Origin: Candidatus Methylomirabilis sp.
Lineage (GTDB): Bacteria > Muiribacteriota > Ozemobacteria > Ozemobacterales > Ozemobacteraceae
Reading direction: 5' to 3'
DNA: 64,000 nucleotides
Assembly (NCBI GenBank): GCA_020722725.1
Contig: DYKG01000004.1
Location: 25,283 to 89,282, forward strand
A program made the position numbers and the translations under genes. This document shows, in pieces, positions 27,201-64,000 of the stretch (within the stretch, counting starts at the first letter, position 1; every line of letters begins with the position of its first letter). A model generated the notes under the pieces. The model made no database searches. It saw nothing but the letters and a program-made list of their open reading frames with translations, and was not told where the DNA came from.

Positions 27201-27261
27201 TGATGACTCGAAAACCATTGAAGCAACCGAGGTTGAGATTAATGATTACAGCCTGCTTTAA
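24232..27261 (+). CDS. Receiver-like domains fused to a PEP/pyruvate-binding (PPDK N-terminal) domain
   Basis: A 1009-residue cytoplasmic protein. Residues about 30-165 and 170-325 look like two CheY-like receiver folds, the first without an obvious phosphoacceptor Asp, the second with ITDVKYNKDG. From about residue 440 comes the ATP-grasp PEP/pyruvate-binding domain: SIGGKARGIAFMNYLL, VRSSGVLEDSVAHSMSGLYETF, LLLGPGRWGTRDRWLGIPITW and DASMGSHFFHNVTTMNIGY. The phosphohistidine swivel and PEP-enolate domains of PPDK or PEP synthase are absent. It therefore probably does not make PEP by itself; it may be a regulatory phosphotransferase. Monocistronic with its own promoter. Confidence 0.8.
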   Translation: MPNQELMQVFKKYKSDSEIFHDLMRFKVRELLLVATIFDAYALEQDGMLAEKIFGEYFHLNLTSAPRITSVTSCGEALEMLSKRQFHMVVVLSRLSKIDMIRIGEKVKDKYPDLPVLLLLNDNTDLEGFDAKNDLCRFYNQVFVWNGNSEIFLAMIKYVEDQQNADRDTQIAQVRIILLVEDSIRYYSRYLPHLYSELIRQTSKLVEEEMQEETKKVLKIRCRPKIILATDYEEAMRLFEYYRDFLLCVITDVKYNKDGVLDDEAGIKLSRRLKELQPDMPILLQSSEPDIEAVANRIGASFIHKDSQFLSKRLSKFFYRNLGFGDFVFRNARGEEITRARTMADFRNCLRIVPSESIEYHASRNHFSTWLLARGEVQTAKVVSRIHVTEFDRVEALRDFLINMGNWVFRMKTRGKVISFDKSFIGETRHHISKLAEGSIGGKARGIAFMNYLLYNSTMLETVEDIIIRIPETFIIGVDEFSSFIAMNDLAEFITFERNYDIIKRRFLESRLSEKILNRLRIVLQKINYPLAVRSSGVLEDSVAHSMSGLYETFFLPNNHPDLETRLKQVEDAIKLVYASVYSKEAREYFDAINYNIEEEKMAVVIQQIVGKQHGNLFYPMISGVGQSYNYYPFSYIKPDDGVGMLVLGLGRLVVGGERSFRFCPAYPNLEILTPEELVKSSQKRFYALDLGKNTIDLFNGEDATLIKTDISDAEPSVLRHTASTWNHIDQRLEVGIDARGPRVLNFANVIQYESIPLAKAMKHILDVSKEALETPVEIEFAVDVDQTEEGEKPAFYLLQLKHMLRESEECNIDVSKIEHDKLVLLADGGMGNGRMDEISDIIWIDPDNFDKSKTEEMALEVEAFNLKLKAEGRKYLLLGPGRWGTRDRWLGIPITWPQASYAKVIVEYSLEGFRVDASMGSHFFHNVTTMNIGYFSVRQDSGGGFIDWQWLRNQPVLENRQFFSHSRIEHPMGVLMDGRKAVFVIFKNLDDSKTIEATEVEINDYSLL

Positions 27262-30607: not shown

Positions 30608-30949
30608 ATGCAGAACGTGGGTTGGGAACAGAAAATTGAGAGTGGTGCTGGCGGAATCATGACTGCGATTGCCGAACTTGGCGGCGATCTTTCTGTTACC
30701 AATGTTTCCCAGATCAAAAAACACCTTGAACAGGTTCTTGATGCAGAATGTAACCTTGAGCTGAAGGTTAGCTCAGTTATCGCAGTCGATACAGCTTTTT
30801 TTCAATTATGGCATAGCTATTTGAATATCAGTCGGGCCAACAATTTAAGATGCACCCTGGTAGAAGATCCTGCCGGGCTGGTTACCAGAGCCGCGGGTAT
30901 TGTCGGTCTCGACCACCTTATTTCATCTACAGCGGGAAAAAATCAATGA
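30608..30949 (+). CDS. STAS-domain protein (chemosensory operon)
   Basis: A 113-residue single STAS domain of the anti-sigma-antagonist type. AVDTAFFQLWHSYLNISR is the loop that in SpoIIAA-like proteins holds the phosphorylatable residue, here a Thr after Asp. Such proteins often open chemosensory operons; their partners there are largely unstudied. The start at 30608 has GGGG seven bases upstream; Met at 30659 is an alternative. Its stop overlaps the cheY start. Confidence 0.75.
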   Translation: MQNVGWEQKIESGAGGIMTAIAELGGDLSVTNVSQIKKHLEQVLDAECNLELKVSSVIAVDTAFFQLWHSYLNISRANNLRCTLVEDPAGLVTRAAGIVGLDHLISSTAGKNQ

Positions 30950-31311
30950 CAAAAATTCTGATTGCCGATGATTCACCCAGCATTCGCATGATGCTTGGCT
31001 CAGTTTTAAATGAAAACGGGTATCAGGTTCAGGACGCCGAAAACGGCCGGGTGGCCCTCGAAAAAGCGTCAGATTTCGGGCCGGATTTGGTTATAACCGA
31101 TCTTAACATGCCTGAAATGAACGGCATTACCCTTGTTCAAAATTTAAGGCGGAACAGCAGATTTAAATTTACTCCGATCCTTGTTTTGACCACCGAAGGC
31201 CAGGAAGAAAAAAGACAGTCCGGCCGTGCCGCCGGAGCAACCGGCTGGCTGGTAAAGCCATTCAATCCAGAAAAATTGATCGCAGTAGTAAAAAAACTCA
31301 CTAATCGCTGA
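30946..31311 (+). CDS. cheY: CheY-type single-domain response regulator
   Basis: A 121-residue receiver domain. It has the acidic pocket IADDS near residue 8, the phosphoacceptor Asp in VITDLNMPEMNG (about residue 53), the Thr in LTTEG and the Lys in VKPF. It takes a phosphoryl group from a CheA HPt histidine and signals to an effector. No flagellar or pilus genes lie in the window, so the target is unknown. It overlaps the STAS gene by four bases and lies 18 bp before the CheA-like gene. Confidence 0.9.
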   Translation: MTKILIADDSPSIRMMLGSVLNENGYQVQDAENGRVALEKASDFGPDLVITDLNMPEMNGITLVQNLRRNSRFKFTPILVLTTEGQEEKRQSGRAAGATGWLVKPFNPEKLIAVVKKLTNR

Positions 31312-31329: not shown

Positions 31330-33312
31330 ATGGATAAACAGATCCAGGCTTTTTTTGAAGAAGCTTTCGAACTCCTGCATGAGCTTGAACAGCTTCTTCT
31401 TGACCTGGAAAACTTTCCCGACAACCCCGAAATTGCTGCCGGCATTCTAAGAATTCTTCATACTCTTAAAGGCACTTCGGCAATGTTTGCCTTCAACGAA
31501 ATTTCTGATTTTGTTCACAAAATTGAAGCAATTTTTATTCATTTTCGCGATGCCCGGAAAACTATTGATAAATCTTTGATTGATGTTTTTATTGCCGCAG
31601 CCGATACGATTAGAAGAACTCTTCATGAAGAACCTCATCGGCTTGCCGATCAGAATCAGGTTATTGTTGATAAAATCAATCAAACTTTTGAATCATCCCT
31701 GCAGCAAAAAGAACACCAGGCACCAGAAAAGCTCGTAAAAAAGTCAGGCACCAAAAAGAAAACCGAGAAAAAAAATAAGAAAATCTGGCTGATCGAATTT
31801 ACCCCGGTTCCCGAATTCTTCTCCTCGGGGAACACCCCTGATCGAGTTTTTGCTGAACTTGGCGATCTGGGTGCGTTGAAAGTTGAATGCGACGTCAGCC
31901 GGATTCCGGATTTTCATCAGCTTAACCCTGAAAAATGCTATCTTTCATGGCAATTGACACTGGTTACCGATGCACCCCTTAACGAAATCAAAGATGTTTT
32001 TATTTTCGTTGAAGACCTGGCAAAAATCGACATTAAAGAAAAAATAGCGGATTTTAAAGAAAGCTCTGACCAGCCACCCGATATTCAGCCCCAAACAAAA
32101 ACAGACAAGATAGATGAAAAAAACAGGGTTGAGCCCCAGCCTTCAGATGTGAAAGGCAAGCTAGACAAACTTTCTGGTGTTCTTCCTCAAGATACTAAAT
32201 CCAATGCCCAGGATTTTTCAATTTCTGAAGAAAACGCAGAGACGGGTTTTCTTCAGGCCAATACTGAAAAGATGATTGCTCTTCTTGGCGACCTGGTCAC
32301 CGTTCAGTCGAAACTCAATCAAAAGGCTTCTATACACGGTGATCCTGAAATGATTTCCATTGCCAATGAACTTGAAAATATTACCGATGAATTGCGCGAT
32401 TGCGCCATACATTTAAGCATGTTTCCGATCGGCACTGTTTTTAATGATTTGCGAAATGCCGTTCTGAATGCAGGCAAAGGAAGAGTCACTCTTGAACTTC
32501 AAGGGGCATCGACCGAAATTGACCGATCAGCATTCATGATTGTTAAAACTGACTATGTCGCCATGTTTGCTGCTTTGGCAGCCTTTTCCTCTGATCGTAA
32601 GAATACTTCCCAGAACAAAATTTCTTTCTTTGCCTGTCATCAGGTTGGTAAAGCCCTTCTTGAAATTAAATATCGCTCAGACCCTGATTCAATTGGTCTG
32701 CTTGATTCTTTGAATAATTCCAACCCTGAACCGGATGAACCGGCTTTTTCTTTATTTGAATCGATCAAAGCCCTCGAATCTAAACTGCTGGTTTTGCATG
32801 GTTCTCTGGCTTTTGAAAAGCAGAATGAAGAAAATTTTCTGATTCGGGTCGGCATACCTTTGAATCTGGCCATTATTGAAAGCCTGATGGTGCAGGTTGG
32901 CAAAGGATTTTTCCTGTTGCCCCTGGCCGATATCGAAGAATGTATCGAGCTTTCCGAAGAAGACCAGAACAAAAGCTATCGTAAAAATGTGGCAATAGTC
33001 AGAGGGCAGTTTGTTCCATATCTGCATATTCGTGAAAAATTTTCGGTCAGCGGCAATGCGCCGCCGGTTCAGCAGATTGTCATCATGAAACTTGAGCAGC
33101 AGCGAATCGGCCTGGTGGTTGATCAGGTTGTCGGTGAATACCAGACCGCCATAAAAAACTGGGGTAATTTCTGCAAAGATGTTAATGGCATAAGCGGTGC
33201 GGCAATTCTTGGTGATGGCGGTATCGCTCTGCTCATCGATTTCCGCGCCCTTATCGATGAAGAAAAAGAACTGCTTGAAAATGCTTTGAAGGAAATCAGC
33301 CATGGCATTTAA
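31330..33312 (+). CDS. CheA-like protein with degenerate ATPase domain
   Basis: A 660-residue protein with CheA architecture. The HPt domain (about 1-105) has the phosphoacceptor His44 in ILHTLKGTSAM. A Lys-rich linker and a small alpha/beta domain (about 145-235) follow, then a P3-like helical hairpin (about 308-375) and a C-terminal CheW-like domain (about 515-650, GKGFFLLPLADIEECIEL to SGAAILGDGG). Where a CheA kinase should have the N-box RNxxDHG, DDGxG and GRGVGMD motifs, none is present; the region is short and reads FAALAAFSSDRKN. It should not bind ATP, but can still accept and donate phosphate through His44 and bind the array. Confidence 0.85.
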   Translation: MDKQIQAFFEEAFELLHELEQLLLDLENFPDNPEIAAGILRILHTLKGTSAMFAFNEISDFVHKIEAIFIHFRDARKTIDKSLIDVFIAAADTIRRTLHEEPHRLADQNQVIVDKINQTFESSLQQKEHQAPEKLVKKSGTKKKTEKKNKKIWLIEFTPVPEFFSSGNTPDRVFAELGDLGALKVECDVSRIPDFHQLNPEKCYLSWQLTLVTDAPLNEIKDVFIFVEDLAKIDIKEKIADFKESSDQPPDIQPQTKTDKIDEKNRVEPQPSDVKGKLDKLSGVLPQDTKSNAQDFSISEENAETGFLQANTEKMIALLGDLVTVQSKLNQKASIHGDPEMISIANELENITDELRDCAIHLSMFPIGTVFNDLRNAVLNAGKGRVTLELQGASTEIDRSAFMIVKTDYVAMFAALAAFSSDRKNTSQNKISFFACHQVGKALLEIKYRSDPDSIGLLDSLNNSNPEPDEPAFSLFESIKALESKLLVLHGSLAFEKQNEENFLIRVGIPLNLAIIESLMVQVGKGFFLLPLADIEECIELSEEDQNKSYRKNVAIVRGQFVPYLHIREKFSVSGNAPPVQQIVIMKLEQQRIGLVVDQVVGEYQTAIKNWGNFCKDVNGISGAAILGDGGIALLIDFRALIDEEKELLENALKEISHGI

Positions 33313-33490: not shown

Positions 33491-36385
33491 ATGTTAGATA
33501 ATTTATCCTTGGCCAAGAAAATTTTTGGGGGGTTTATAATCGTAGCAGCTATAACACTTTTTGTGGGTTATATGGGCTACAGTGGAGGCGCAAGCCTTGG
33601 TGAGCATGTTAATGGGATCGCCGAAGTCCGGTTCCCCAGCGTGCAAAGCCTGCTGATCGTTGATCGGGAACTTGAAAAAATCAGCGCTGCGCAACGAACA
33701 ATGCTTAATCCGGAAATTTTTGATGAAGATTACAACCGGCAGCTTAAAATTGTTGAAAATGCCAGAAAAGCCTATAATGAAGCTTTGAAAATTTATGAGC
33801 CACTGCCAAAGTCCAAAGAAGAAGCAGACGAATACACAATTTTCAAAGCCGGGCTTGAAGGTTGGAAAATTGAAAACGACAAGGTTTTTCAATTTTTGGG
33901 CAAGAAAGAAGAAACTGGTATTCGTAACCCTAATGCTTTACGGGTTCTTATCGAAAGCTTCAGCAAGGATCACTATAAGCTTCAGGTTGGGTTGCTTGGA
34001 GAAATAGCCGACTCAAAATCAGGAACCGGTGGTGATGACCATACAGCCTGTAACTTTGGTAAATGGCTGGTAAATTTCAAAACCAGCAATGCCCAGGTAA
34101 ATCAGATTCTAAATGAAATGCGCGATCCTCACCGGGAATTTCACGCTTCGGTCAAGAGAATCAGAAGTTACCTGGATAATGCTGATAAGGACGGTGCCAT
34201 GAGAGTTTTCTCCACTCAAACCAAACCGGCTGCAGAAAAAGTTTTCTCTGCTTTCGCAAGTTTGATTGATGTTGCCGCGCAAATTCAAACATTTCATAAT
34301 CAAGCCACTGAAATTGCTTTTGGTTCTGGCATGCTAAAACAGAATGCCGCCATGGAATCTCTGGCAAAAATCGTTAAGATCAATACTGATTCGGCAATGC
34401 ACGAAGCAGGCGTTGCCAAAAATGATGTAACCAAGGTTAAAAATTTCACTCTTGGCGGTATGCTGCTGGGCTTTCTGCTGGCACTGTTTGCTGGTATTTA
34501 TCTAAGCAGAAATATTAACGGCATTCTTCAGGATTTCCTGGCGGAAATGAAATGGCTTGCGGAAGAAGTGGTTTCCGGAAAACTGGCATCACGTGGCCGT
34601 GCCGCCAAAATCAACTTTGAATTCAGACCTCTGGTTGAGGGAGTCAATCAAACGATTGATTCACTTGTTGGACTGCTTGATGCAATGCCTGCTCCAGCAA
34701 TGGTAATCGATGACAAATTCCAGGTTTGCTATATGAATAAAGTGGCAGCATCTACCGTAGGCCAGACGCAGGATTCAGTTGTTGGACAGCACTGCTATGA
34801 CCTTTTCAAAACCGAAGACTGCCGCACTGAGAAATGCGCCTGTCATCTGGCAATGAGAAATAACCGTGATATCAACAGCGAAACCAAAGCTAAACCCGCA
34901 GGCAAAAATCTTGACATAGCTTACTCAGGTGTGCCGATGAGAGACCAGAATGGTAAAATCATCGGTGCTTTCGAAGTGGTTACCGACCTTACCGCCATCA
35001 AGGCTGCAGGTAGAATTGCAAGAAAAGTGGCCCAATACCAGGAAAATGAAACGAAAAAGCTTACCGCCGGTCTCGGTGCGCTTGCCAAGGGTGATCTTAA
35101 CTTTAAGCTCATTGTTGACAAGGGTGATGATGATACCAAAGAAGCACGCGCCAGTTACGAAGAAATCGCTCATGCCGTGCATGAATGTTCAAATGCAATT
35201 CAGCGACTCTGTGATGATTCCGCTGCGCTTGTGCAATCAGCAATTAATGGTGAACTTGCTACCAGAGCTGATGCTACCAGACACCAGGGCGAATACCGTA
35301 CAATTATAGACGGCGTAAATAAAACCCTCGACGCAGTAATTGGCCCGTTGAAAGTCGCCGCAAATTACGTTGACCTGATCTCTCAGGGTGAAATTCCCGA
35401 AGAAATCACCGACAGTTACAACGGTGATTTCAACGAAATCAAGGAAAACCTCAACGCCTGTGTCAGAAATCTTTCCAGGGTTGCCATTGAAATCAAGACC
35501 GCATCCGATAATGTCGCCAACGGCAGCAATGAGCTCTCGGCCAGTGCCGAACAGTTGTCGAGCGGTGCCAATGAACAGGCCAGCGCGGCTGAAGAAGTTT
35601 CTTCTTCAATGGAAGAAATGAGTTCGAACATTCAGCAGAACGCCGATAACTCAGCACAGACCGAAAGAATAGCACAGAAAGCGGCTGAAGACGCAAGGCT
35701 TGGCGGAAAAGCGGTTACTGAAACCGTTTCGGCAATGAATGAAATTGCTTCGAAGATCGCAATCATCGAAGAAATTGCGCGCCAGACCAATCTGCTCGCT
35801 CTTAACGCCGCAATTGAAGCGGCCCGTGCCGGTGAACACGGCAAAGGCTTCGCGGTTGTTGCTTCCGAAGTTAGAAAACTTGCCGAAAGAAGCCAGCTCG
35901 CCGCCGGAGAAATCCGTGATCTCTCTGCTTCAAGCGTTAAGGTTGCCGCCCAGGCCGGTGAAATGCTGTCGAAAATCGTACCCGACATTCAGAAAACCGC
36001 CGAGCTCATTCAGGAAATCAGCGTCGCATCTAAAGAACAGAACTCGGGTGCCGAACAGATCAATAAGGCTATTCAGCAGCTCGATTCAATTATTCAGCAG
36101 AATGCCGGAGCCTCTGAAGAACTCGCCTCAACTGCCGAAGAGCTGAATTCTCAGGCTGAACAGATGCGTTCGGTAATCAGTTTCTTCAAATTGAAAGGTA
36201 TGGATCGTCAGAAGGTTGGCCGCAATCAGATGACTCACACCAAAACCAAACCCCAGCAGAAGTCTGCCCATGCCCCGGCGGAAAAGGCAGCAGAAAAAGG
36301 CAAGGTAGTAAAAAAAGGCGCGGGCGTCAGCATCAATCTTAACGACGATGTAGACGGCTACGACGCAGATTTCGAAAAATATTGA
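33491..36385 (+). CDS. Methyl-accepting chemoreceptor with CZB-like and Cys-rich PAS domains
   Basis: A 964-residue chemoreceptor. TM1 is at about residues 11-30 and TM2 at about 318-338. The sensory region contains a chemoreceptor zinc-binding-like motif ([10 protein letters not shown] near 183, and [13 protein letters not shown] near 215). After HAMP (about 339-390) comes a PAS domain (about 392-500) with the cluster [18 protein letters not shown], which may bind metal or heme or sense redox. The signalling hairpin tip is [20 protein letters not shown]. There is no NWETF-type pentapeptide at the C-terminus. GAGGAGGG precedes the ATG. It is probably the only receptor of this operon. Confidence 0.9.
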
Positions 36386-36443: not shown

Positions 36444-36965
36444 ATGTCTAACGAATCGGGTACTATCAACCAGTATCTGGCTTTTAAACTTGGTGAAGAG
36501 GTTTATGCGGTAGAAGTAGGGAAGGTTCGTGAAATTCTTGATTTCCCGCCGATTACCAAAGTGCCGCGAACCCCTGATTTCATGCGCGGAGTCATCAACC
36601 TTCGCGGCAGCGTTGTTCCTGTTGTTGACATGCGCCTGAAATTCGGCATGAGCCGAACCGAAAAATCGGTAAATACCTGCATTATCGTCGTTGAGGCGAT
36701 GGTAGAGAGCGAAATTACCACGATCGGGGCCCTGGCCGACTCGGTCCAGGAAGTATTTGAATTAAGCGATGCCAATATTGAACCTCCTCCCAAGATTGGC
36801 ACCCGCCTTAAAGTTGAATTTCTGAAAGGCATGGGAAAAATTGGTGAGAGCTTTCTCATGATTCTCGACATCGACAAGGTGTTCTCTTCAACCGAAATCC
36901 TGATGGTTAAGGATGCCGCAGCAACCGGTCAGCATCTGGTAGAGCCAGACAACTATACCGATTAA
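36444..36965 (+). CDS. cheW: Chemotaxis adaptor CheW
   Basis: A 173-residue CheW domain linking receptors to the kinase. It has YLAFKLGEEVYAVEVGKVRE, the binding-loop block RTPDFMRGVINLRGSVVPVVDMR, and GMGKIGESFLMILDIDKVF. The ATG has ACGGAGG eight bases upstream. It is followed 8 bp later by cheR. Confidence 0.95.
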   Translation: MSNESGTINQYLAFKLGEEVYAVEVGKVREILDFPPITKVPRTPDFMRGVINLRGSVVPVVDMRLKFGMSRTEKSVNTCIIVVEAMVESEITTIGALADSVQEVFELSDANIEPPPKIGTRLKVEFLKGMGKIGESFLMILDIDKVFSSTEILMVKDAAATGQHLVEPDNYTD

Positions 36966-36973: not shown

Positions 36974-37843
36974 TTGCTCGAAGTGCTTGATGAACAGCTA
37001 AAAAACAACGATTCTATTCCCCGGTTGACCGACCAGGATTATCGGCGTCTTGCTGAATTCGTTACCAACAACTGGGGAATCAAACTGCCGCCGGCGAAAA
37101 AAGTGATGCTTGAAGGTCGCCTTCGCCGGCGGTTAACCGCTTTGAAGATGACGACTTACAAAGAATATTGTGATTATCTGTTCAATTCAGATAATCATCA
37201 GGCTGAAGCCCTTGAAATGATCGATTTTGTCTCTACCAACAAAACCGATTTTTTTCGTGAATCAGATCATTTCAGGTTCCTTCAGGAAACCGTCCTGCCG
37301 GCCCTGATTGAACGCCATGCCAACCTTAACCTGCAGCTCTGGAGTGCCGGTTGTTCCAGCGGCGAAGAACCTTATACTCTCGCCATGGTCATCAGAGATT
37401 TTCAACGGGAAAACCGGAGTTTTCCCGTTAGAATTCTCGCTTCAGATATTTCCGCCAGGGTTTTGCAGCAGGCAAAAATGGCGATCTATAAGGAAGATAA
37501 GATTGCCCCGATTCCTTTCGATCTGCGAAAAAAATATCTCTTAAGGTCCAAAGACCACAAGAATAAAGTTGTGCGATTTGTTCCCGAAATTCGCAATATG
37601 ATTGATTTTGCCCGGGTGAATCTCATGCAGCTTGAAAATTACAATATCGGCTCCCCATTCCATATTATTTTTTGCCGAAATGTAATTATTTATTTCGACC
37701 GGGAAAACCAGGAACGGCTTGTGCAAAACTTTTACGATCGACTCGAACCTGAAGGCTACTTGTTTATGGGGCATTCAGAAGCACTCCCGGGATTAAAAGT
37801 TCCATTTAAAACCGTGGCCCCCATGGTCTACCAGAAAGCTTGA
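36974..37843 (+). CDS. cheR: Chemotaxis methyltransferase CheR
   Basis: Transfers methyl from S-adenosylmethionine to receptor Glu residues. The helical N-terminal domain (to about 75) and the Rossmann-like domain are both present: [10 protein letters not shown], the SAM loop [26 protein letters not shown] and [11 protein letters not shown]. The start is uncertain: TTG 36974 lies too close to GAGG, and GTG 36983 lies 11 bp from it; both are upstream of the first domain. The receptor in this operon lacks a CheR-binding pentapeptide, so CheR must dock directly. Confidence 0.93.
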
Positions 37844-37845
37844 AA

Positions 37846-38910
37846 ATGACGGAAAAACGTTTAAAAACCTTAATCGTCGACGATTCTGCCGTAGTTCGTC
37901 AGGTTTTGACCGAAATTCTCGGTAGTGATCCTGATATTGAAGTCATTGGCGCAGTTGCCAACCCATTTCTTGCCGTCGACCGTATGGCCGAAAATGCGCC
38001 AGACGTTATCGTTCTCGATATAGAAATGCCGAGAATGGATGGACTTACTTTTCTGAAAAAAATCATGACGCAGCACCCGATTCCGGTGGTGATCTGCTCA
38101 AGTCTTGCCGGTCCGGGCGAAGAAACGACCTTCAGAGCCCTTGAACTTGGGGCCGTAGACATAATTACCAAGCCACAGGTCGGTACCCGCGAGTTTCTTG
38201 CCGAATCGAAAATTCGTGTGTGTGACGCAGTTAAAGCAGCTGCCAAAGCCAAAATAGGTAAAATTATTCCCCGCGAAAGGCTGGTTAAGCATACTGCCGA
38301 TGTAATTCTTCCTGCAAAAAAGGTGGCTCTGACTAAAACAACTGACCGGGTGGTGGTTATCGGTGCTTCAACCGGCGGAACCGAAGCCTTGAAAGAACTG
38401 ATTACCAATCTTCCGCTCGATTGCCCTGGAGTGGCAATAGTTCAACATATGCCAGAACATTTTACCGCTTCTTTCGCCAGAAGGCTCAACGATCTTTCAT
38501 GTGTTACTGTTAAAGAAGCGGAAAATGGCGATTCCATGCTGCGCGGTCAGGTTCTCATTGCCCCGGGCAATAAGCACATGCTTCTCAAGCTCAGCGGGGC
38601 AAGATACTTTGTTGAAATCCGCGATGGCCCTCTGGTTTCGCGGCACCGACCTTCTGTTGATGTGCTGTTTCGTTCTTCTGCCAGATATGCTGGCAAGAAT
38701 GCAGTCGGCGTGATTCTTACCGGTATGGGTGATGATGGTGCCCGTGGATTACTGGAGATGCGTGAAGCCGGCGCCAGAACCATTGCCCAGGATGAAAAAA
38801 CTTCGGTAGTCTTTGGCATGCCAAATGAAGCAATTAAACTTGACGCGGCTGAATTCGTGTTACCATTAAATCAGATAAATCAGAAAGTGATTCGATTATG
38901 CCAAGATTGA
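37846..38910 (+). CDS. cheB: Chemotaxis methylesterase/response regulator CheB
   Basis: A receiver domain (1-120; IVDDSAVVR, phosphoacceptor in [13 protein letters not shown]) is joined by a linker to the methylesterase domain. The catalytic triad is Ser in [11 protein letters not shown], His in VQHMPEHFT and Asp in GMGDDGARG. It removes methyl groups from receptors and deamidates Gln when phosphorylated. I chose the ATG at 37846 rather than the TTG at 37840 inside the cheR stop. It overlaps cheD by 13 bp. Confidence 0.95.
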
Positions 38911-39485
38911 ATTCAGAGCTGAGAATCAGGCACAGCGACTTTATCAATGTCGATATTGGCAGCTATTACGCGTGCAAAGATGGTTCAGTTCTTCGCACCC
39001 TTCTTGGGTCATGTGTTTCTACATGCCTATATGATCCACTTTCCGGAGTCGCAGGGATGAACCACATTCTGCTTTCGGAAGTCGCCGACATGAAGAGGTT
39101 TGACGCCAATGCCCGCTATGGCATTCATGCCATGGAAATTCTGATAAACGAAATGGTTAAACTGGGCGCCATCCGCAATCGCATAAAAGCCAAGGCTTTT
39201 GGCGGTTCGAACGTATTGAGGTCTCTTAACGATAACATGTCTCCAGGGGAAAAGAATATCAAATTCATAGTGGAATACCTTGAAATGGAAAGAATACCGC
39301 TGATGGCCAAAGATCTCGGTGGCGATAAAACCAGGGTGATTTTTTTTCATACTGATACCTTCGAAGTTTTTGTCAGAAAAACTTCAACCTCACAGACAAA
39401 ACAGGCCATTTCCAAAGAAACGACACGCAAAACCCAGGTGGTCGAAGAAAAAGACCAGGCCGGCGATATCGAGCTTTTCGAATGA
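38898..39485 (+). CDS. cheD: Chemoreceptor glutamine deamidase CheD
   Basis: A 195-residue protein with the family's catalytic residues: Cys in [13 protein letters not shown], His in AGMNHILL and a Thr in [11 protein letters not shown]. It deamidates receptor glutamines to glutamates that CheR can methylate. A Lys/Thr-rich C-terminal tail (about 165-195) goes beyond the usual 160 residues. It lies between cheB and the HPt gene. Confidence 0.93.
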
Positions 39486-39498: not shown

Positions 39499-40458
39499 AT
39501 GGATCGAGAAACGATGAGCATCTATCTGGAAGGAGCCAATGAGCTTCTTGCCGAAATGGAGGAAGCAATTCTTCGTCTTGGTGACAATCCTGATGAAATG
39601 AGCGAAATTAACCGGCTTTTTCGGGTTATGCATTCCCTTAAAGGCTCTTCTGCGATGGTAGAGCTAAATGATGTCTCAGAATTTGCCCACAAGCTTGAAG
39701 GTGAATGTGATTATTTTCGCCAGGGTAAAGCCAGAGTAAATTCTGAATTTCTTAAACTGGTTCTTAAATCTCACGATCAGATAAAAATTCTTATTTTTTC
39801 TCATTTTGGCGGGGTTAAAGCTGATCACAAGGTTTCTGAATATCTTATCAATGAAATTAAAAAGTTTCGAGGTGGTTCGGTCGCCAGTTCTTTCAGTTTT
39901 GAAAAAGAAGAGCTGCGACTTGTAAGACTTCTGGCGACTATTCAGGATTCAATCAAACATTTAAAAGAATTTTCCATGGATGAAGTTATAAAACTCAGTA
40001 AAGACCTTACATGTTTCCTTCTTTTGAGCCGAAGAATGCAGAAAGAAAGCCTGACAGAATTTATGGCTCCATTCGAAAGGTTTTTAAGAGATTGCAAAAA
40101 ACTTGCCATTGTTCCGCCTGCTGAATTTACCGGATGTCTGCGCGAAGTTCTGGCAGAGGCTTCCAGATTATTGAATGAAAGCGATGTTCAGATCAATGAA
40201 GCGGATTTTTCTCCGGAATCTCTTTTAAGATCGCTGCAGATACCCATGGAACTCAAAGACCGTCTTAACCGAATAAAGGTGAGTATCGATTTTCCCGATG
40301 CAAGATTGCCTGATGAAAAAGAGTATCTGGTCAGACTTGACCAGATTGCTGAAAATATGAAAATTTTTAACCCACAGACGATTGTTGATGCTTTAAGCCT
40401 TTTAGGCAGTGTCAACCAAAAGTCAGATCTTAATTTTCAGAAGGAAAATGGTGCCTGA
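39499..40458 (+). CDS. Stand-alone HPt protein with long helical tail (detached CheA P1)
   Basis: A 319-residue protein. Residues 1-105 are a CheA-type HPt domain with phosphoacceptor His45 in VMHSLKGSSAM and the matching glutamate/lysine helix EFAHKLEGECDYFR. The remaining ~190 residues are predicted helical and match no CheA domain that I know; there is no ATPase or CheW part. The kinase gene follows directly and overlaps by 11 bp, so the pair looks like a CheA cut after P1. AGGAG six bases before the ATG at 39499 fixes the start; an ORF start at 39370 lies inside cheD. Confidence 0.8.
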   Translation: MDRETMSIYLEGANELLAEMEEAILRLGDNPDEMSEINRLFRVMHSLKGSSAMVELNDVSEFAHKLEGECDYFRQGKARVNSEFLKLVLKSHDQIKILIFSHFGGVKADHKVSEYLINEIKKFRGGSVASSFSFEKEELRLVRLLATIQDSIKHLKEFSMDEVIKLSKDLTCFLLLSRRMQKESLTEFMAPFERFLRDCKKLAIVPPAEFTGCLREVLAEASRLLNESDVQINEADFSPESLLRSLQIPMELKDRLNRIKVSIDFPDARLPDEKEYLVRLDQIAENMKIFNPQTIVDALSLLGSVNQKSDLNFQKENGA

Positions 40459-42004
40459 GATGTCTTCTGCTATTGAGTTGCTTCTTAAAACCGAATTAAC
40501 CAGAGAAGAAATTGAAGATCTGCTTGAATTTCTGGTTAAAGACCAGGCACTTTTCGACGTTACACCTGCGGCAAATTTGCCGGTTAGCCCGATTAACCCT
40601 CTGGTAACTCCCAAAATTGGTAAAATTCTGCTTGAAAAAGGTGAGATAACCCAAGAGCAGCTTGAAAAGTCTCTTTCAAAGCAGAAAAGAATCGGAGAGC
40701 ACCTGGTTGATGAAGGACTTATCAGCAGAGAAAAGCTTGATGAAGCACTGAAAGATCAGAACCGCCAGCGGGTTAAAATTGAAGCCCTGAAAAAATCGGA
40801 TATCAGCGCTAACATTAAAGTTAATGCCGGAAAGCTTGATAAGTTGTTCGATCTTATTGGCGAACTGGTAACCGTCCAGGAAAGGCTTTCTCAGGCATCA
40901 AGCGTCATTCGCAAAACACGACCTGAAAATTTGGGGCGGGTAATTGGAGAACTTGATTTAGAAGCCATTTCAGAAGAAATCAGTATGCTGACCAATTCTT
41001 TGCGTGATAATGCCTTGAGTGTACGCATGCTGCCGATCGAATCCACTTTTTCCAAATTCAGACGGCTGATTCATGACCTTTCGGCCGAGTTGCACAAAAG
41101 CATTGAATTATCCATGTCTGGCACCGAAACTGAAATTGATAAAACCGTAATCGATAAACTCGATGAGCCACTGATGCATATCATCAGAAATTGCGCCGAC
41201 CACGGCATTGAAAGCCCGGAAGATCGAAGAAAAGCCGGTAAGCCGGTTAAGGGGAATATTCACCTTTCAGCGGAACATGATGCCGGAAATGTGGTTATAC
41301 ACATTCGAGACGATGGAGCCGGGCTGAATCGCAAACGTATTTTTGAAATTGCTCTGCAGCGCGGTATGATAACTGAAGATACCGTTCTAACTGATGGTCA
41401 GGTTTATAATCTTATCTTTGAACCAGGGTTTTCAACCGCAAAAAACGTTACCAGCATCTCAGGCAGAGGCGTGGGAATGGACGTTGTCAAGAAAACGATC
41501 GAGGGGCTTGGTGGACACGTTAACGTGCTTTCCACCGAAGGAAAAGGCACACAGATCGATATTACCCTGCCGCTGACCCTTGCCATTATTGACGGTCTGC
41601 TGGTTTCTATTGCGCATCAGAGCTTTGTTTTTCCACTGAATGTGGTTAACGAATGTGTTGAACTTCGCAGGAATACTATCGACCAGAGCACCGGCGGCAA
41701 CCTGGCAAATGTCAGGGGGGCTCTTATTCCTTACATAAGACTGCGAGACCTGTTTGAGTTTTCCGGGGAAGCCCCGGAAATCGAACAGATTGTTATCAGT
41801 AGTCTTAATGGAAGGGTTATTGGGTTTGTGGTAGATGAGGTAATCGGTGGTCACAAAACCGTAATCAAGCCTGTCGGCAAGATGTATAAAGCCGTTCCCG
41901 AATTTTCCGGGGCATCTATTCTTGGCGATGGCTCAATTGCGATTATTGTTGACCCGTTTCGAATCCTAAAAATCGCTGAGGCCGCCGAAGCACTGAAAAA
42001 CTGA
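40448..42004 (+). CDS. cheA: CheA histidine kinase lacking HPt, with MshEN-like N-terminal motifs
   Basis: About 517 residues. Instead of P1 and P2, the N-terminus (about 40-105) has two copies of a 24-residue motif: KIGKILLEKGEITQEQLEKS and RIGEHLVDEGLISREKLDEA, each ending L-x-x-Q. This resembles the c-di-GMP-binding MshEN motif. P3 dimerisation (about 110-200) follows. The intact ATPase has N-box HIIRNCADHGIE, DDGAG and GRGVGMDVV. The CheW-like P5 ends SGASILGDGSIAII. It should phosphorylate an HPt in trans, most likely the one encoded just upstream. The start is uncertain between ATG 40448, GTG 40451 and ATG 40460. Confidence 0.88.
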   Translation: MVPEMSSAIELLLKTELTREEIEDLLEFLVKDQALFDVTPAANLPVSPINPLVTPKIGKILLEKGEITQEQLEKSLSKQKRIGEHLVDEGLISREKLDEALKDQNRQRVKIEALKKSDISANIKVNAGKLDKLFDLIGELVTVQERLSQASSVIRKTRPENLGRVIGELDLEAISEEISMLTNSLRDNALSVRMLPIESTFSKFRRLIHDLSAELHKSIELSMSGTETEIDKTVIDKLDEPLMHIIRNCADHGIESPEDRRKAGKPVKGNIHLSAEHDAGNVVIHIRDDGAGLNRKRIFEIALQRGMITEDTVLTDGQVYNLIFEPGFSTAKNVTSISGRGVGMDVVKKTIEGLGGHVNVLSTEGKGTQIDITLPLTLAIIDGLLVSIAHQSFVFPLNVVNECVELRRNTIDQSTGGNLANVRGALIPYIRLRDLFEFSGEAPEIEQIVISSLNGRVIGFVVDEVIGGHKTVIKPVGKMYKAVPEFSGASILGDGSIAIIVDPFRILKIAEAAEALKN

Positions 42005-43010: not shown

Positions 43011-45209
43011 ATGACCAAAATTCTTGATCCAAAAAAGAAACTCGATATCGAAGAAATTCTCAACAACCTCGAAGACTACCACCCCCGGCGCAAAGGCTGG
43101 ACCTGGAGAGAAAAAACCGATTATAAAGTCGAAAAGTTCCATTTCAAGGATATGACAAAACCCTTGAAAAATTCGGTTCCGTTGCCCGCATCCAAATATT
43201 TTAATTTTATTGATCCCCAGCCCACACCGGTTATTACCACTGAAATAGCCTCCGGCAGATTTGAAGACGATATCCGGCGCATGCGCATGGCCGCATGGCA
43301 TGGGGCTGACCACATAATGGTTATTCGCACCACCGGTCAGAGCCACATTGATGGCCTGCTTGAAGGCACTCCCGAAGGCGTTGGCGGAGTTCCCATAACC
43401 CGCAAGCAGATTCGCGCATCGCGCAAAGCCTGTGACATGATCGAAGATGAAGTAGGCCGGCCAATTAATTTCCATTCCTATGTTTCCGGTGTTGCTGGTC
43501 CCGAAGTTGCTGTTCTTTTCGCCGAGGAAGGCATCAACGGCGCCCACCAGGATCCGCAGTATAACGTGCTTTATCGCAATGTTAACATGTACAGATCATT
43601 TACCGATGCCGCTTCAGCCAAAAAGGTAATGGCCGATGCCCGCATCTTCCAGATTGATGGTGCCCACAATGCCAATGCTACCGCCAAGGAAGGCTGGTCT
43701 GTCATGCCCGAACTGCTGGTACAGCATGGTATCAACTGCGCATTCTCTGCCGCCTGCGGCATGCCCAAAGACCAGATCGGCCTTTCAACCGTTCCACCCT
43801 GTGCTCCGCCTGCCCCCAAACTCTGGTATGACCTTCCCTATGCGGTTGCCCTGCGCGATTTCTTCAAAGAATACAAGTTTCGGGCGCAGCAGAATACCCG
43901 CTACATTGAGGCCGACATCGAAGAAGCAACCCGCACCCATGTTATTGATACCCTGATTTCAGCCCTTACTCATGCTGACATTCAGAGCACCATCACACCA
44001 GATGAAGGCCGCAATGTGCCCTGGCATTACAATAACATTCGCGGTATTGAAACTGCCAAGCAGACCCTGGTCGCACTTGACGGGATAAAACAGTTGATTA
44101 AAATCGACCGTGACGGCCCGCTAGGTGAAATGGTACGTGACCTCAAGGAACGGGCGATCTGCTTTTTAGAAGAAATGCTTGAAAGCGGCGGCTATTTTTT
44201 TGCGGTAGAAAAGGGCTTTTTCGTTGATTCAGCCCGTTACCCGGAAAGAAATGGCGATGGCATTGCCCGCGACGGAAAAGGCGGAGTTGGAACCGGCTCG
44301 ATCGTCGAGCGCGAAGCCGATTATATGGCCCCGGTCTGCAGCGTGTTCGGCAAAAATAATCTGCCCGCTGGCCTTAAGAAACCCTGCGATCTCATCGATG
44401 GCTGCACTTTGTGCAAACCTGAAAAAATCTTTTATCTTGATGAAATTGACCCCAATGATAACTGCAATCTGCGCCTGAAAAAGACCGAAGAATTTCGCAA
44501 AGGCGATAAGATCAGACCAGAAGTGGAATGGGCCGGCGATGGAACCGTGCTGATTCAGCTTTTTCTGCCCGAAGAAATCGAAGTGGCAAGAGTTGCAGCC
44601 CTTGAAGTCGCCAAAAAAATGGGGTTGAATGAACCCGAGGTTATCAACGCCCAGGTCATGCACCCTTCTGAAGGCACTTTTCTTGAAGTTAAGGGCAAGG
44701 TCGATTTCAGTATCGATAGAAAATCCCTGAAGATTCCACCGAAAGAAGAAATGCTCAGCGAAGAAGAAATTCGCGCCGGAATCAAAAAAGTCGGTTTTAA
44801 AGTCGTTGCCGGTACCGTGGGAGAAGACGAGCATTCGGTCGGTCTGCGTGAAATTCTTGATATCAAGCATGGCGGCATCGAAAAATACGGGGTAAAATAC
44901 CACTACCTCGGAACCTCGGTTCCCATAGGAAAAATGGTCGATGCAGCCATCGAAACCGGAGCCCAGGCCATTCTTATCAGCACCATCATCAGCCACAACG
45001 ATGTGCATCGCAAAAATATGCGCAAACTTGACGAATTGTGCCGAGAAAAAGGCATCAGAGACAACCTGATTCTGATTTGCGGCGGCACCCAGGTTACCCG
45101 TGAAATTGCCAGAGAATGTGGCATGGATGACGGTTTTGGTCGTGGCACCAAAGGAATTCATGTGGTTAATTCAATGGTTAAAACCATGAAAGCCAAAGGA
45201 AAAATCTAA
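43011..45209 (+). CDS. oraE: D-ornithine 4,5-aminomutase large subunit OraE
   Basis: A 732-residue catalytic subunit. The N-terminal TIM-barrel part (1-~590; HGADHIMVIRTTGQSHIDGL) is followed by a C-terminal Rossmann B12-binding domain. The base-off cobalamin motif D-x-H-x-x-G appears as DEHSVG, and TSVPIGKMVDAAIETGAQ and ICGGTQV complete the cobalamin fold. It uses adenosylcobalamin and PLP to move the amino group from C5 to C4 of D-ornithine, an anaerobic amino-acid fermentation step. It is the full length of the family. A structured repeat and a terminator-like hairpin follow the stop. Confidence 0.95.
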   Translation: MTKILDPKKKLDIEEILNNLEDYHPRRKGWTWREKTDYKVEKFHFKDMTKPLKNSVPLPASKYFNFIDPQPTPVITTEIASGRFEDDIRRMRMAAWHGADHIMVIRTTGQSHIDGLLEGTPEGVGGVPITRKQIRASRKACDMIEDEVGRPINFHSYVSGVAGPEVAVLFAEEGINGAHQDPQYNVLYRNVNMYRSFTDAASAKKVMADARIFQIDGAHNANATAKEGWSVMPELLVQHGINCAFSAACGMPKDQIGLSTVPPCAPPAPKLWYDLPYAVALRDFFKEYKFRAQQNTRYIEADIEEATRTHVIDTLISALTHADIQSTITPDEGRNVPWHYNNIRGIETAKQTLVALDGIKQLIKIDRDGPLGEMVRDLKERAICFLEEMLESGGYFFAVEKGFFVDSARYPERNGDGIARDGKGGVGTGSIVEREADYMAPVCSVFGKNNLPAGLKKPCDLIDGCTLCKPEKIFYLDEIDPNDNCNLRLKKTEEFRKGDKIRPEVEWAGDGTVLIQLFLPEEIEVARVAALEVAKKMGLNEPEVINAQVMHPSEGTFLEVKGKVDFSIDRKSLKIPPKEEMLSEEEIRAGIKKVGFKVVAGTVGEDEHSVGLREILDIKHGGIEKYGVKYHYLGTSVPIGKMVDAAIETGAQAILISTIISHNDVHRKNMRKLDELCREKGIRDNLILICGGTQVTREIARECGMDDGFGRGTKGIHVVNSMVKTMKAKGKI

Positions 45210-45234
45210 AAAACAGCGGTTGCTGAACTCGTCA

Positions 45235-45276
45235 CCTATATGGTCGCTGAACCTGTAAAACGGGTCAAAGCGACAG
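45235..45276 (+). repeat. 42-bp structured repeat, copy 1
   Basis: ACCTATAT followed by a two-part hairpin: the outer stem GTCGCT/AGCGAC (45244-45249 with 45270-45275) and the inner stem ACCTG/CGGGT. A second copy lies at 60613-60654 with compensatory changes. It starts 26 bp after the oraE stop. Confidence 0.65.
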
Positions 45277-45299
45277 TAAGCACTTAAAGTTTTTAAAAA

Positions 45300-45333
45300 C
45301 AGCCGGGTCTGGGCTTCTCAGCCCGGCTTTTTG
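45300..45333 (+). terminator. Intrinsic terminator after oraE
   Basis: AGCCGGG and CCCGGCT arms around a loop that can also pair internally (GGGCT/AGCCC), followed by five T. It would end the oraS-oraE transcript. Confidence 0.75.
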
Positions 45334-45343
45334 CTGCCGGTAG

Positions 45344-45372
45344 TTGCGGAAAACTTCAAATAAAGCTATCAT
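45344..45372 (+). promoter_or_regulatory. Sigma70 promoter TTGCGG-17-TATCAT
   Basis: Optimal spacing, 35 bp before the ATG at 45407. It separates this gene from oraSE, which end in a terminator just upstream. Confidence 0.6.
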
Positions 45373-45406
45373 GCCGGAAGCAGAAAAGATATTTAGGAGA
45401 GAAAAT

Positions 45407-46072
45407 ATGATAGATTATGCATTTGAGCTGGATAATGGAAAAAAGGTTGGTTTCAAGGTTCAGTTTAACCGAAATGAATGGCTTACCGAAGATAAAGCCC
45501 TGTTTCCCGAATGGACTCGCATGGCGTTTCAGCAATGCACGATCTGCCCATTTTCTGCGACGGAGCATTTCTATTGCCCGACTGCAGTTGATGTAAAAAA
45601 TGTTGTTTCCGAGTTCGCCGAGATTTCTTCAATTAATGAAATGAACGTTGTCGTTCGCGTGCAGGATCGCACCATTCGCAAGCGATGTCATGCCCAGATC
45701 GGACTCAATTCTCTTATGGGGCTGCTGATGGCAACAAGTGCCTGCCCGGTTCTGGCAAAGCTGAATTCGCTGGCTCGGTATCACCTGCCTTTCGCTTCTT
45801 TTAATGAGACTCTCTATCGAACGGTCGGTGATTATTTGATTAAGCAGTATCTGATCAAAGCTGAAGGGGGTACCCCCGATTTTGAACTGATCGGCCTGGA
45901 AGCCCTTTATCGCGACCTGGGCGAACTCAATAGATGTTTTCTTAACCGAATCAAGGAAGTGGCAAAACTTGATGCTTCTTTGAATGTTATTGCGAACCTT
46001 TCCAGTCTGTCGATGATAATGCAGATCTCAATCAGCGATCGTCTGAAATCTTTCAAAAACGATCTGATCTGA
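45407..46072 (+). CDS. DUF6901-like protein in the ornithine cluster
   Basis: A 221-residue soluble protein. Recognisable blocks are TICPFSATEHFYCPTAVD (Cys pair and His), a central GLNSLMGLLMATSACPVL and RYHLPFASFNETLYRTVGDY. From memory they resemble the DUF6901 family, whose function is not known to me. The Cys/His block suggests metal binding. AGGAGA before the ATG at 45407 sets the start; the open frame to 45344 overlaps the promoter. It lies between oraE and the glmL-like gene but has its own promoter, so a link with ornithine breakdown is only suggested. Confidence 0.6.
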   Translation: MIDYAFELDNGKKVGFKVQFNRNEWLTEDKALFPEWTRMAFQQCTICPFSATEHFYCPTAVDVKNVVSEFAEISSINEMNVVVRVQDRTIRKRCHAQIGLNSLMGLLMATSACPVLAKLNSLARYHLPFASFNETLYRTVGDYLIKQYLIKAEGGTPDFELIGLEALYRDLGELNRCFLNRIKEVAKLDASLNVIANLSSLSMIMQISISDRLKSFKNDLI

Positions 46073-46099
46073 TTCTTTTTTCTTTAAAATTTCATATAG

Positions 46100-46128
46100 T
46101 TGTTTAAGAACCTTGGTTATGCTAAGAT
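46100..46128 (+). promoter_or_regulatory. Promoter of the glmL-like/orr/alr operon
   Basis: TTGTTT, 17 bp, TAAGAT with TGC directly before the -10 (extended -10). It ends 30 bp before the ATG at 46159. Confidence 0.55.
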
Positions 46129-46158
46129 TACCCTGAATTTTTCAGGTAAGGTCAAAGC

Positions 46159-47496
46159 ATGAGAAAAAAAATCGATATTCTTACCCTTGAAGTTGGCAGC
46201 ACCATAACCAAAGCCAACGGGTTTGTCCGCACTCACAATGATTCACTGCAGCATATTGCCCAGGGGTTTGCCCCTACCACGGTTGACCAGGGCAATGTGG
46301 GAATCGGTTTGAAGGATGCCATTGATAATCTTGAACAGAACTCAGGCTGCAGCACCGATAATGCCGATATTTTCGCAAACAGCTCAGCTGCCGGCGGTTT
46401 GCGGGTAACGGTTCACGGTTTAACCTGCAACATGACAGCCCGGGCTGCCCGAGAAGCCAGTCTTGGTGCCGGGGCAATCATAAAAATGGTGACAGCTGGC
46501 GATATCAGTGAATTTGATCTCGAAGAAATTGAAGAAATCAATCCCAACATGATTGTTCTGGCCGGCGGGGTTGATTTCGGCGCCAGCGACATCGTTATTC
46601 AGAATGCGATAAAAATTGCTTCACTCGATCAACGGGTGCCGATTGTTTATGCCGGCAACAGCGCGTTGAAGCGGGCTATCGAAAATATTTTCAAGAAATC
46701 AGGCTTTGAACTGCTGATTGCCCCGAATGTTTTTCCTGATGTTGATGTGCTTGATGTGGAGCCTTTGAGAAAACGCATGCAGGAACTGTTTTCGCGCCAT
46801 ATCATTCATGCACCGGGTATGCATCGCCTGCAAAGCCTGACCGGTCGCCAGATCATACCGACCCCGGGGGCTGTTCTTCGCGGTGCTGAGCTTTTTGCTG
46901 AAGTTGCCGGTGATTGTATGGTCGTCGATGTTGGTGGTGCAACCACCGATGTTCATTCGGTTACCGATGGATCCAGGGAATTTGCCGATAAACTTATCGA
47001 CCCTGAACCGCGCAGCAAAAGAACGGTTGAGGGAGATCTCGGAGTTTTCGTAAATGCCGCCAACGTTCTGGAATTGGCAGAAGACGATGCCTGGATGGCC
47101 CGCCGTGATGAAATAAGGGCAATGCCGAAAACCGAAAGAGAAGTTGAGATTACCCGCTGGCTCTGCCAAAAGGCGGTGGATGTCGGAGTAAAACGCCATG
47201 CCGGAAACGTTTCAGATCTTTTTACCCCTTCCGGAAAAAAACAGATCATCAAAGGGAAAGATCTGTCTGCAGTCAAATGGGTAATTGGCACCGGCGGAGC
47301 GCTGACCAGAGTTCCGGGGGGTGCAGATATTCTTGGTTCTGTCTGCACCGGTCCGTCACGATCACTGCTGCCAAAACCAGATGCAAAAATTCTTCTTGAT
47401 AAAAACTACCTGTTTTCTGCCCTGGGAACCGTTGCCATTGAGTTCCCGGATTTGGTGAAAAACACCTTTAAGGAATGGATTGAAGCAAATGTTTAA
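46159..47496 (+). CDS. GlmL-related (MutL-type) ornithine-degradation accessory protein
   Basis: A 445-residue protein of the ASKHA ATPase fold. ILTLEVGSTITKANGF is the phosphate-1 loop, CMVVDVGGATTDVHSV phosphate-2 and KWVIGTGGALTRVPGG the adenosine loop. GlmL/MutL proteins sit beside B12-dependent mutases and are thought to act as reactivating chaperones. Its neighbours oraE and orr point to the ornithine mutase as partner. It is the first gene of an operon with orr and alr; its stop overlaps the start of orr. Confidence 0.88.
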   Translation: MRKKIDILTLEVGSTITKANGFVRTHNDSLQHIAQGFAPTTVDQGNVGIGLKDAIDNLEQNSGCSTDNADIFANSSAAGGLRVTVHGLTCNMTARAAREASLGAGAIIKMVTAGDISEFDLEEIEEINPNMIVLAGGVDFGASDIVIQNAIKIASLDQRVPIVYAGNSALKRAIENIFKKSGFELLIAPNVFPDVDVLDVEPLRKRMQELFSRHIIHAPGMHRLQSLTGRQIIPTPGAVLRGAELFAEVAGDCMVVDVGGATTDVHSVTDGSREFADKLIDPEPRSKRTVEGDLGVFVNAANVLELAEDDAWMARRDEIRAMPKTEREVEITRWLCQKAVDVGVKRHAGNVSDLFTPSGKKQIIKGKDLSAVKWVIGTGGALTRVPGGADILGSVCTGPSRSLLPKPDAKILLDKNYLFSALGTVAIEFPDLVKNTFKEWIEANV

Positions 47497-63700: not shown

Positions 63701-64000
63701 CCTGCATGATTCGAATATTGAAGCCCCCACGCATATCTTCAGTGATTGGAACTTCAATCGCGACTTTGTTTTCTGCCGGGTCGGTCCAGAATGATTTGAG
63801 CAATTTGCGGCGATGCTCAACTTCAATGTAAGCCGGGCCCCTGTCATATCCGGTTGCCCAGAAACCTTTGTATGTGTCTCCCGGTTTGGCTGGGCTACTG
63901 GTTGTGTGATAAAAGAAGGGAACTTTGACCGAGAAGTTCTTCGCTTTATAATCAACAACCGTGAAGTTAAATATATATTTAACCTGATTGTTGTAGCGGT
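60729..64000 (-). CDS. Alpha-2-macroglobulin family protein, C-terminal part (N-terminus outside window)
   Basis: The frame stays open to base 64000, so at least 1090 residues are visible and the start lies beyond the window. There are macroglobulin/bait-type beta domains first. A Pro/Ala/Glu-rich spacer follows (about 62,990-63,230), then the TTWKFLGFAHGNN block, and the thioester region YPHECSEQIFNRIYAN (near 62,340) with the C-x-E-Q pair retained. An alpha-alpha toroid (FPWFPGGYPNSFITLYIMTG) and a C-terminal receptor-like beta domain complete the visible part. Bacterial members trap invading proteases in the envelope. Its usual partner, penicillin-binding protein 1C, is not in view. Confidence 0.88.
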   Translation of the reverse strand, partial: RYNNQVKYIFNFTVVDYKAKNFSVKVPFFYHTTSSPAKPGDTYKGFWATGYDRGPAYIEVEHRRKLLKSFWTDPAENKVAIEVPITEDMRGGFNIRIMQVKENREYYHVQYVPINWTNKQLNLKFAHMSSKLMPGQKDTWKIEISGEEAEAGAIEMLAAMYDASLDAFAAHGWMNGFSFFYQDRNYINPTYTNYNSSLYCWRNDLNNYSGVGTRTYPQLPWNIQNDFLNYFFDDMPRSKSMRFSVGAVPPAPMASMNREGLMMSEAAAPVMQRADMADGFAEIESIEEKKKDAPGNAPQEAAPEKAAGPEPDLDKVSARSNLNETAFFFPHLLTDKEGVVTMEFTVPEALTTWKFLGFAHGNNAQAGGLIGETVTQKDLMVQPNPPRFLREGDKLRFTAKVTNLSDVEQKGKIRLTLQDPVTDKNRNEEFRLSENVFEFSVPAGESKGFGWELSVPYTPGMVKYTVVGATSNLSDGEEGMLPILSSRIFVTESLPLPIKGNEKKKFTFKKLVESKSSKTLEHQGLTVEVTSNPAWYAVQALPYLLEYPHECSEQIFNRIYANRIAAFIANSDKKIKKVFDTWKAEEAQGGKALYSNLEKNEHLKSVALLETPWVLDAKNETEQKHRIGVLFDTNRIESEMGRSMKKLEAYQLSDGGFPWFPGGYPNSFITLYIMTGFGRMQHLGVDVNVDMALKSLNYLDAWIDREYREIIKHPGYQKNCNINPTYAMYLYGRSFFLKERPIPANARTAVEFFLDEAREKWLRVGSRLAQGHMAIALKRFGDKKVPGDIVNSIKERSVTDEEMGSFWRENEISFWWYRAEIETQAVMIELFDEVANDKQMVEDCKIWLLKQKQTQNWKTTKATADAVYALLLRGTDLLASDKLVEVYLGGAMVEPEKVEAGTGYYQKIYSGAEVKPEMGNIEVVKKDAGIAWGAVHWQYLEDMSKVTPHETNLKLKKTLFVKKDTDKGPTITPVGDSLKVGDLLVVRIELRTDRDMEYIHMKDQRGSGMEPTSVLSQYKYQDGLAYYEATRDTATHFYIDYLPKGVYVFEYELRVQHQGVYQSGMAEIQCMYAPEFNSHSESFVMKITE

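Follow-up and report, generated by a model that had tools for sequence, protein, structure and literature searches.

The locus described here raises the question of whether a chemotaxis kinase of the CheA type could be tuned directly by the second messenger cyclic di-GMP (c-di-GMP). In a preliminary description of the window (the whole stretch of DNA analysed, 64,000 nucleotides in length), two adjacent 24-residue motifs were reported at 40612-40764, at the N-terminus of a putative CheA, with the pattern through which MshE and the type II secretion/pilus ATPases bind this nucleotide. The host has its nearest named relatives among the Candidatus Riflebacteria, Ca. Ozemobacter sibiricus being one of them. 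Its genome contains 16 GGDEF matches, 13 matches to the motif model, two PilZ matches and one flagellar FlhA. The CheA encoded on the FlhA contig, the P3 of which lies about 4.6 kb from FlhA, contained no motif pair and was matched only from model position 54.

The motif pair of the kinase

The kinase and its two motifs are located as follows:

40448-42004, + strand: P1-less CheA kinase of 518 amino acids, with the C-terminal half of P2, the motif pair, P3, P4 and P5 (Pfam; AlphaFold2)
40613-40684, + strand: MshEN-type motif I, kinase residues 56-79 (NF053729 match; AlphaFold2 helices 57-63 and 69-77)
40688-40759, + strand: MshEN-type motif II, kinase residues 81-104 (NF053729 match; AlphaFold2 helices 82-88 and 94-118)

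The kinase ORF begins with an ATG at 40448 and its stop codon ends at 42004. That the host protein is a CheA kinase was borne out, with Pfam placing H-kinase_dim, HATPase_c and CheW domains downstream of the pair and with the N, G1 and G2 boxes all present (RNCADHG, DDGAG and GRGVG). Both motifs were likewise recovered inside the interval first given for them. They read K56-IGKILLEKGEITQEQLEKSLSK-Q79, K80, R81-IGEHLVDEGLISREKLDEALKD-Q104, that is, two 24-residue copies of the MshEN type separated by the single residue Lys80, whereas MshEN is a 53-residue domain with a spacer of five residues.

NCBIfam model NF053729, a curated model of 53 positions entitled "cyclic di-GMP-binding domain-containing protein, MshE-related", matched the pair with 51.3 bits against a cut-off of 38 (E-value=7.3e-14). 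The alignment was broken into two stretches, which we attribute to the five-residue spacer that the model expects. When the PDB sequences were searched, the best match was PilF of Thermus thermophilus (E-value=1.8e-13), followed by MshE (5HTL; E-value=0.0055). The motif pair goes beyond a chance resemblance. The sameness of pattern with MshE that had been proposed thus survives as homology to its c-di-GMP-binding half, in profile, PDB sequence and predicted fold, but not in the spacing of the motifs. Since the spacer is a single residue, and spacers of one or two residues are the commonest state among CheA-borne pairs, the pair is classified from its sequence as MshEN-like, short-spacer variant.

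The check that had been suggested, an HMM search for T2SSE_N/MshEN, would have been misleading: a Pfam search found no match to PF05157 on the kinase, and NF053729 scored above its cut-off. PF05157, although now named MshEN in Pfam, models the C-terminal subdomain (MshEN_C) and not the motif pair, and was therefore rejected as a test of the latter. In the pilus/secretion-type proteins of this genome it covers 90 positions directly after the motif pair, for instance on the minus strand of C61, where the motif lies at 32431-32589 and the PF05157 match at 32176-32430. The isolated MshEN_N (residues 1-62) of V. cholerae binds c-di-GMP with a KD of 0.35 uM, MshEN_C being dispensable for binding (PMC5013675), so the missing PF05157 match says little against c-di-GMP binding. 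DUF4388 was rejected as the identity of the pair (18-22 bits versus a cut-off of 25, over a partial stretch), and matches to Fumarase C_C, Mnd1 and SHOCT were dismissed as subthreshold helix noise.

A CheA divided within P2

The motifs had been thought to occupy the place of P1 and P2. This proved wrong, as the upstream gene and the head of the kinase reveal:

39499-40458, + strand: Hpt protein of 319 amino acids, with P1 and the N-terminal half of P2 (Pfam Hpt, E-value=3e-14)
40324-40455, + strand: N-terminal half of P2, forming the tail of the Hpt protein (compared with a profile of 59 intact P2 domains)
40466-40558, + strand: C-terminal half of P2, kinase residues 7-37 (profile comparison with intact P2 domains)

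P1 (Hpt) is absent from the kinase chain and is encoded by the overlapping upstream ORF, making this a bipartite CheA; ahead of the motifs the kinase has the second, C-terminal half of P2. P2 was investigated with a profile of 59 P2 domains gathered through iterated HMM searches, the query being the tail of the Hpt protein plus the head of the kinase from four genomes. Joined, the two segments scored 40.1 against the profile, with 80 columns aligned, P=3e-7 and a probability of 93%; shuffling of the columns, repeated 200 times, gave no score above 20.9. Singly, the kinase head gave P=7.5e-6 and the Hpt-protein tail P=0.003. Because the joined tail and head match the P2 profile, the break lies in the interior of P2, both halves of which are kept in four genomes. 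The two halves likely re-pair; each could instead be a relic. In the bipartite CheAs surveyed by Berry et al. (2023; PMC10782961) Hpt is, as here, specified by its own gene in the same operon, but in the present case the break falls inside P2.

Might this be one CheA gene, interrupted by an assembly error or read by programmed frameshifting, so that its product is a CheA of the usual full length into which MshEN has been inserted? The cut through the middle of P2 could be taken in this sense, as could the existence of a fused homologue in Ca. Ozemobacter (L040) in which P1, the P2 region, the pair, P3, P4 and P5 lie in one chain. We nevertheless consider it very improbable, as the two-ORF split is found in four Riflebacteria with differing junctions: an overlap of 11 nt in the window, a classic ATGA overlap of 4 nt in L010/L039, and gaps of 13 nt in L012 and 8 nt in L041/L014. 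The corresponding phase shifts are +1, -1, +1 and -1, and every kinase starts with ATG. Such differing phases argue against a shared frameshift signal as well as against an assembly error.

The operon and its second CheA

Upstream of the Hpt gene the operon specifies the following products, all identified with Pfam:

30946-31311, + strand: CheY-like stand-alone receiver (Response_reg, E-value=1.7e-29; ORF listed from 30850)
31330-33312, + strand: second CheA with P1, P2, a P3-like region, a degenerate P4 and P5, a putative pseudokinase (Hpt, CheW)
33491-36385, + strand: chemoreceptor with 4HB, CZB (zinc-binding), PAS, HAMP and MCP signalling domains
36444-36965, + strand: CheW
36974-37843, + strand: CheR
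37840-38910, + strand: CheB
38898-39485, + strand: CheD

In the second CheA (31330-33312) Pfam found no HATPase_c domain, and none of the N, G1 and G2 motifs is present; these motifs are likewise missing from L188 and L190, of two other Riflebacteria, whose genomes also carry the split kinase. Judged by its motifs, the kinase at 40448-42004 is predicted to be the only catalytically competent CheA of the operon. A comparable arrangement occurs in Rhodobacter (Cereibacter) sphaeroides, where CheA3 consists of P1, a degenerate kinase region and P5, and CheA4 is without P1 (PMC3591291, PMC10782961). In both organisms a P1-less P3-P4-P5 kinase and a partner composed of P1, a dead kinase and P5 are encoded in one operon, a likeness of genes, with trans-phosphorylation of P1 and CheY-P phosphatase activity putative for the operon described here. 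The latter differs in that its kinase carries a c-di-GMP-type module and that a third protein, Hpt plus half of P2, is present. The operon shows no direct link to a diguanylate cyclase.

Several other genes were noted. The genome encodes a second, unsplit CheA (L008:529-2889, contig C82), whose single chain spans P1 to P5 and includes a motif pair with a spacer of two residues. Within the window, the 1009 amino acid protein specified at 24232-27261 combines, unusually, a PPDK_N ATP-binding domain (residues 439-818) with a stretch weakly resembling a receiver (209-298, below the cut-off). Adjoining the chemotaxis operon, at 43011-47496, are genes for a D-ornithine 4,5-aminomutase-like large subunit with a B12-binding domain, a DUF6901 protein and a MutL-family protein, suggesting amino-acid fermentation. 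The minus strand at 60729-63803 encodes a bacterial alpha-2-macroglobulin-type protein (A2M and bMG10 domains).

Predicted structure

Kinase residues 1-127 were modelled with AlphaFold2 from a nine-row alignment, giving a pLDDT of about 85 across residues 61-110. In the model the pair folds into four helices (57-63, 69-77, 82-88 and 94-118), the number expected of the MshEN_N bundle. Structural comparison with c-di-GMP-bound MshE (5htl) yielded Z=9.1 and an rmsd of 1.6 A over 56 residues, figures to be read with the caution that small helical bundles match easily and that AlphaFold2 may know the fold and ignore the length of the linker. Model residues 52-107 superpose on residues 5-64 of the 5htl chain, a 4-residue deletion being absorbed between the motifs; by arithmetic from these ranges K56, Q79, R81 and Q104 would pair with Arg9, Gln32, Arg38 and Gln61 of MshE. 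The PilF GSPII-B structures came next (rmsd 1.4 A), and the first entry outside MshE, PilF and PilB had a Z of 4.8. With Foldseek, the first six matches were all to c-di-GMP-bound PilF GSPII-B at 33-42% identity, with the weak E-values (0.14-0.6) of a small domain. A full-length AlphaFold2 model of the kinase matches CheA structures and places the first P3 helix at 127-156.

Ligand-contact positions

In each motif of MshE, c-di-GMP is contacted by Arg1, Leu2, Gly3 together with the next backbone NH, Leu17, Leu21 and Gln24 (PMC5013675). The corresponding residues of the kinase are K56, I57, G58, L72, L76 and Q79 in motif I and R81, I82, G83, L97, L101 and Q104 in motif II, all of them kept or conservatively replaced. 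The Arg/Gln ligand positions, on which the preliminary description had made its proposal depend, are thus present on alignment, with both Gln retained and Lys or Arg at both first positions. Lys for Arg in the first copy had been named as a potential refuting sign, and does not act as one: PilF GSPII-B, whose KD is 6 nM, likewise has Lys as the first residue of motif I, as do other binders (PMC11731258). In an engineered PilF GSPII-A, Ile in place of Leu at two positions caused only a 2.4-fold loss (PMC12002112), and E. coli NfrB, in whose motif I positions 1 and 24 are Pro and Arg, binds c-di-GMP with a KD of 1.0 uM (PMC8669469, PMC8669472). Since PilF, GSPII-A and NfrB tolerate substitutions, the contact residue set of the MshEN type is permissive. 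The spacer is another matter. NfrB was entertained as a proven binder with a one-residue spacer and rejected, as Gly491 and Gly519 lie 28 apart, which leaves a spacer of four; that of the kinase is shorter than in any proven binder checked (four or five residues).

Three proteins serve for comparison. The kinase pair shares with the MshEN of V. cholerae MshE (PDB 5HTL; Wang et al. 2016, PMC5013675) the two 24-residue motifs, the four-helix bundle (predicted in the kinase), Gly3, hydrophobic residues at positions 2, 17 and 21, and Gln24. It differs in its spacer (1 versus 5), in the Lys for Arg of motif I, in having no MshEN_C and in being fused to CheA rather than to an ATPase. T. thermophilus PilF GSPII-B (PDB 8PDK; PMC11731258), the top Foldseek match, resembles it in the Lys at position 1 of motif I; unlike the kinase pair, it has a spacer of 5 and a C-terminal subdomain and is part of a pilus ATPase. 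NfrB also carries its MshEN module on a non-ATPase catalytic domain and is a proven binder in spite of degenerate positions 1 and 24 in motif I, but its spacer is 4 and it is a glycosyltransferase.

Motif pairs in other CheA proteins

Conservation was analyzed in 46 distinct CheA proteins with both motifs aligned (HMM alignment), the counts being conditional on a match to a profile that was itself derived from ten proteins of this kind. The spacer is one residue in 20 proteins, two in 10, five in 5 and 6-17 in the rest. Gly3 is present in both motifs of all 46, as is the Gln24 of motif II; at position 24 of motif I Gln is found in 32, the other 14 having Lys, His or, once, Arg. Lys or Arg occupies position 1 of motif I in 30/46 and of motif II in 24/46, Pro being next, and the turn residue Gly10 is kept in 41/46 and 29/46, respectively. 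In 28 of the 46 Gly3, Gln24 and the hydrophobic residues at 2, 17 and 21 are kept in both motifs. The replacement of the motif I Gln24 in 14 proteins, and by His in the orthologue L010, implies that c-di-GMP binding may not be uniformly kept.

The pair is situated shortly before P3 in these CheAs. One other phylum, sampled through 198 genomes, yielded matches at an E-value of 1e-22 or better in 61 of them, most of the matches spanning the pair and P3, and the named hosts of pair-bearing CheAs include Riflebacteria, Deltaproteobacteria, Oligoflexia, SAR324 and Lambdaproteobacteria. As far as sequence can tell, the motif pair is a recurrent CheA element.

Proposed mechanism and alternatives

The explanation we favour, with a probability of roughly 0.55, is that the split CheA is tuned through direct binding of c-di-GMP to its MshEN_N-type bundle. 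It starts from the observed sequence, domain order, split and contact-residue conservation, and from the predicted fold; from these we infer both the binding and its effect on the kinase. A compact four-helix bundle, placed immediately ahead of the helices through which P3 of the sole competent CheA of the operon dimerises, would bind one c-di-GMP, with one guanine per motif. The P1 phosphorylated in trans by this P1-less kinase would be that of the small Hpt protein, likely held to the kinase by re-pairing of the P2 halves; the pseudokinase CheA (31330-33312), joining through P3 and P5, may be an alternative or additional P1 acceptor. c-di-GMP would stiffen the bundle or redirect its final helix (94-118), the one running towards the first helix of P3. 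The altered presentation of P1/P2 to P4 would change the rate of phosphotransfer in either direction, and the cellular c-di-GMP level would in this way set the gain of phosphotransfer to CheY. In favour of this tuning we count the NF053729 score, the AlphaFold2 and Foldseek matches, the contact residues and the substitutions tolerated there, the conservation of Gly3 and Gln24, the 16 GGDEF domains of the genome, the conserved split with its P2 halves and the pseudokinase partner. Counted against it are the spacer of 1 versus 4-5, the motif I Gln24 lost in 14/46, the non-binding GSPII-A, the possible indifference of AlphaFold2 to linker length and the want of a diguanylate cyclase link in the operon.

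Several of these adverse points fit a different explanation, in which the MshEN_N fold has been kept and ligand binding lost, the bundle between P2 and P3 serving as a rigid spacer or as a surface on which, for example, the Hpt protein or the array of receptors docks. PilF GSPII-A is a precedent, keeping the fold without binding even when the consensus is restored (PMC12002112), and the one-residue spacer, the range of spacers among CheA pairs (1-17), the frequency of Pro at position 1 and the losses of the motif I Gln24 all agree with it. Loss of the ligand is harder to reconcile with the invariance, in the aligned set, of the guanine-contacting Gly3 (backbone NH) and the motif II Gln24 while the fold-only Gly10 is more variable, or with the retention in this kinase of both Gln and of Lys or Arg at both first positions; we regard it as quite possible, though short of probable. 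The short spacer could also favour pairing between chains, c-di-GMP being bound only between the two chains of a CheA dimer with one motif from each, or the ligand may be another cyclic dinucleotide such as cGAMP, which MshEN binds weakly (PMC5013675). Both variants appear improbable: modelled as a single chain, the pair already superposes on bound MshE (rmsd 1.6 A, 56 residues), and c-di-AMP is excluded in MshE on geometry.

Tuning by c-di-GMP may be carried a step further. CheA would then function as two proteins whose P2 re-forms from its halves, the short-spacer bundle between P2 and P3 would gate assembly or output, and the pseudokinase would compete as second acceptor. We advance this only tentatively and hold it to be rather unlikely in its entirety; if true, c-di-GMP would decide the coupling of the phosphoacceptor to the kinase.

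Significance

The pair had been presented as an unusual input into chemosensory signalling, a claim to be tempered in that the combination is not wholly new. Where Wang et al. (2016; PMC5013675) list MshEN-bearing proteins, CheA is among them as a prediction from sequence, and the same domain combination stands uncharacterised in that list. The main text of the 2023 survey of CheA architecture (Berry et al., PMC10782961) makes no mention of c-di-GMP or T2SSE, and no experiment on an MshEN-bearing CheA, or on c-di-GMP binding by CheA, was found in the open-access literature searched. Seemingly undescribed are the short-spacer sub-type as the usual form of the pair in CheA, a break located within P2, and the association with a CheA whose kinase is dead.

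In the direct links between c-di-GMP and chemotaxis for which we found descriptions, the target is a receptor or an adaptor (PilZ-bearing receptors, MapZ); a kinase-borne pair would put the c-di-GMP input on CheA itself. The split P2 and the dead-kinase partner together offer a natural system for studies of bipartite CheA. Binding by one pair-bearing CheA, if shown, would make a widespread and unstudied input testable, and would provide a function for a stretch of CheA that is often treated as a linker.
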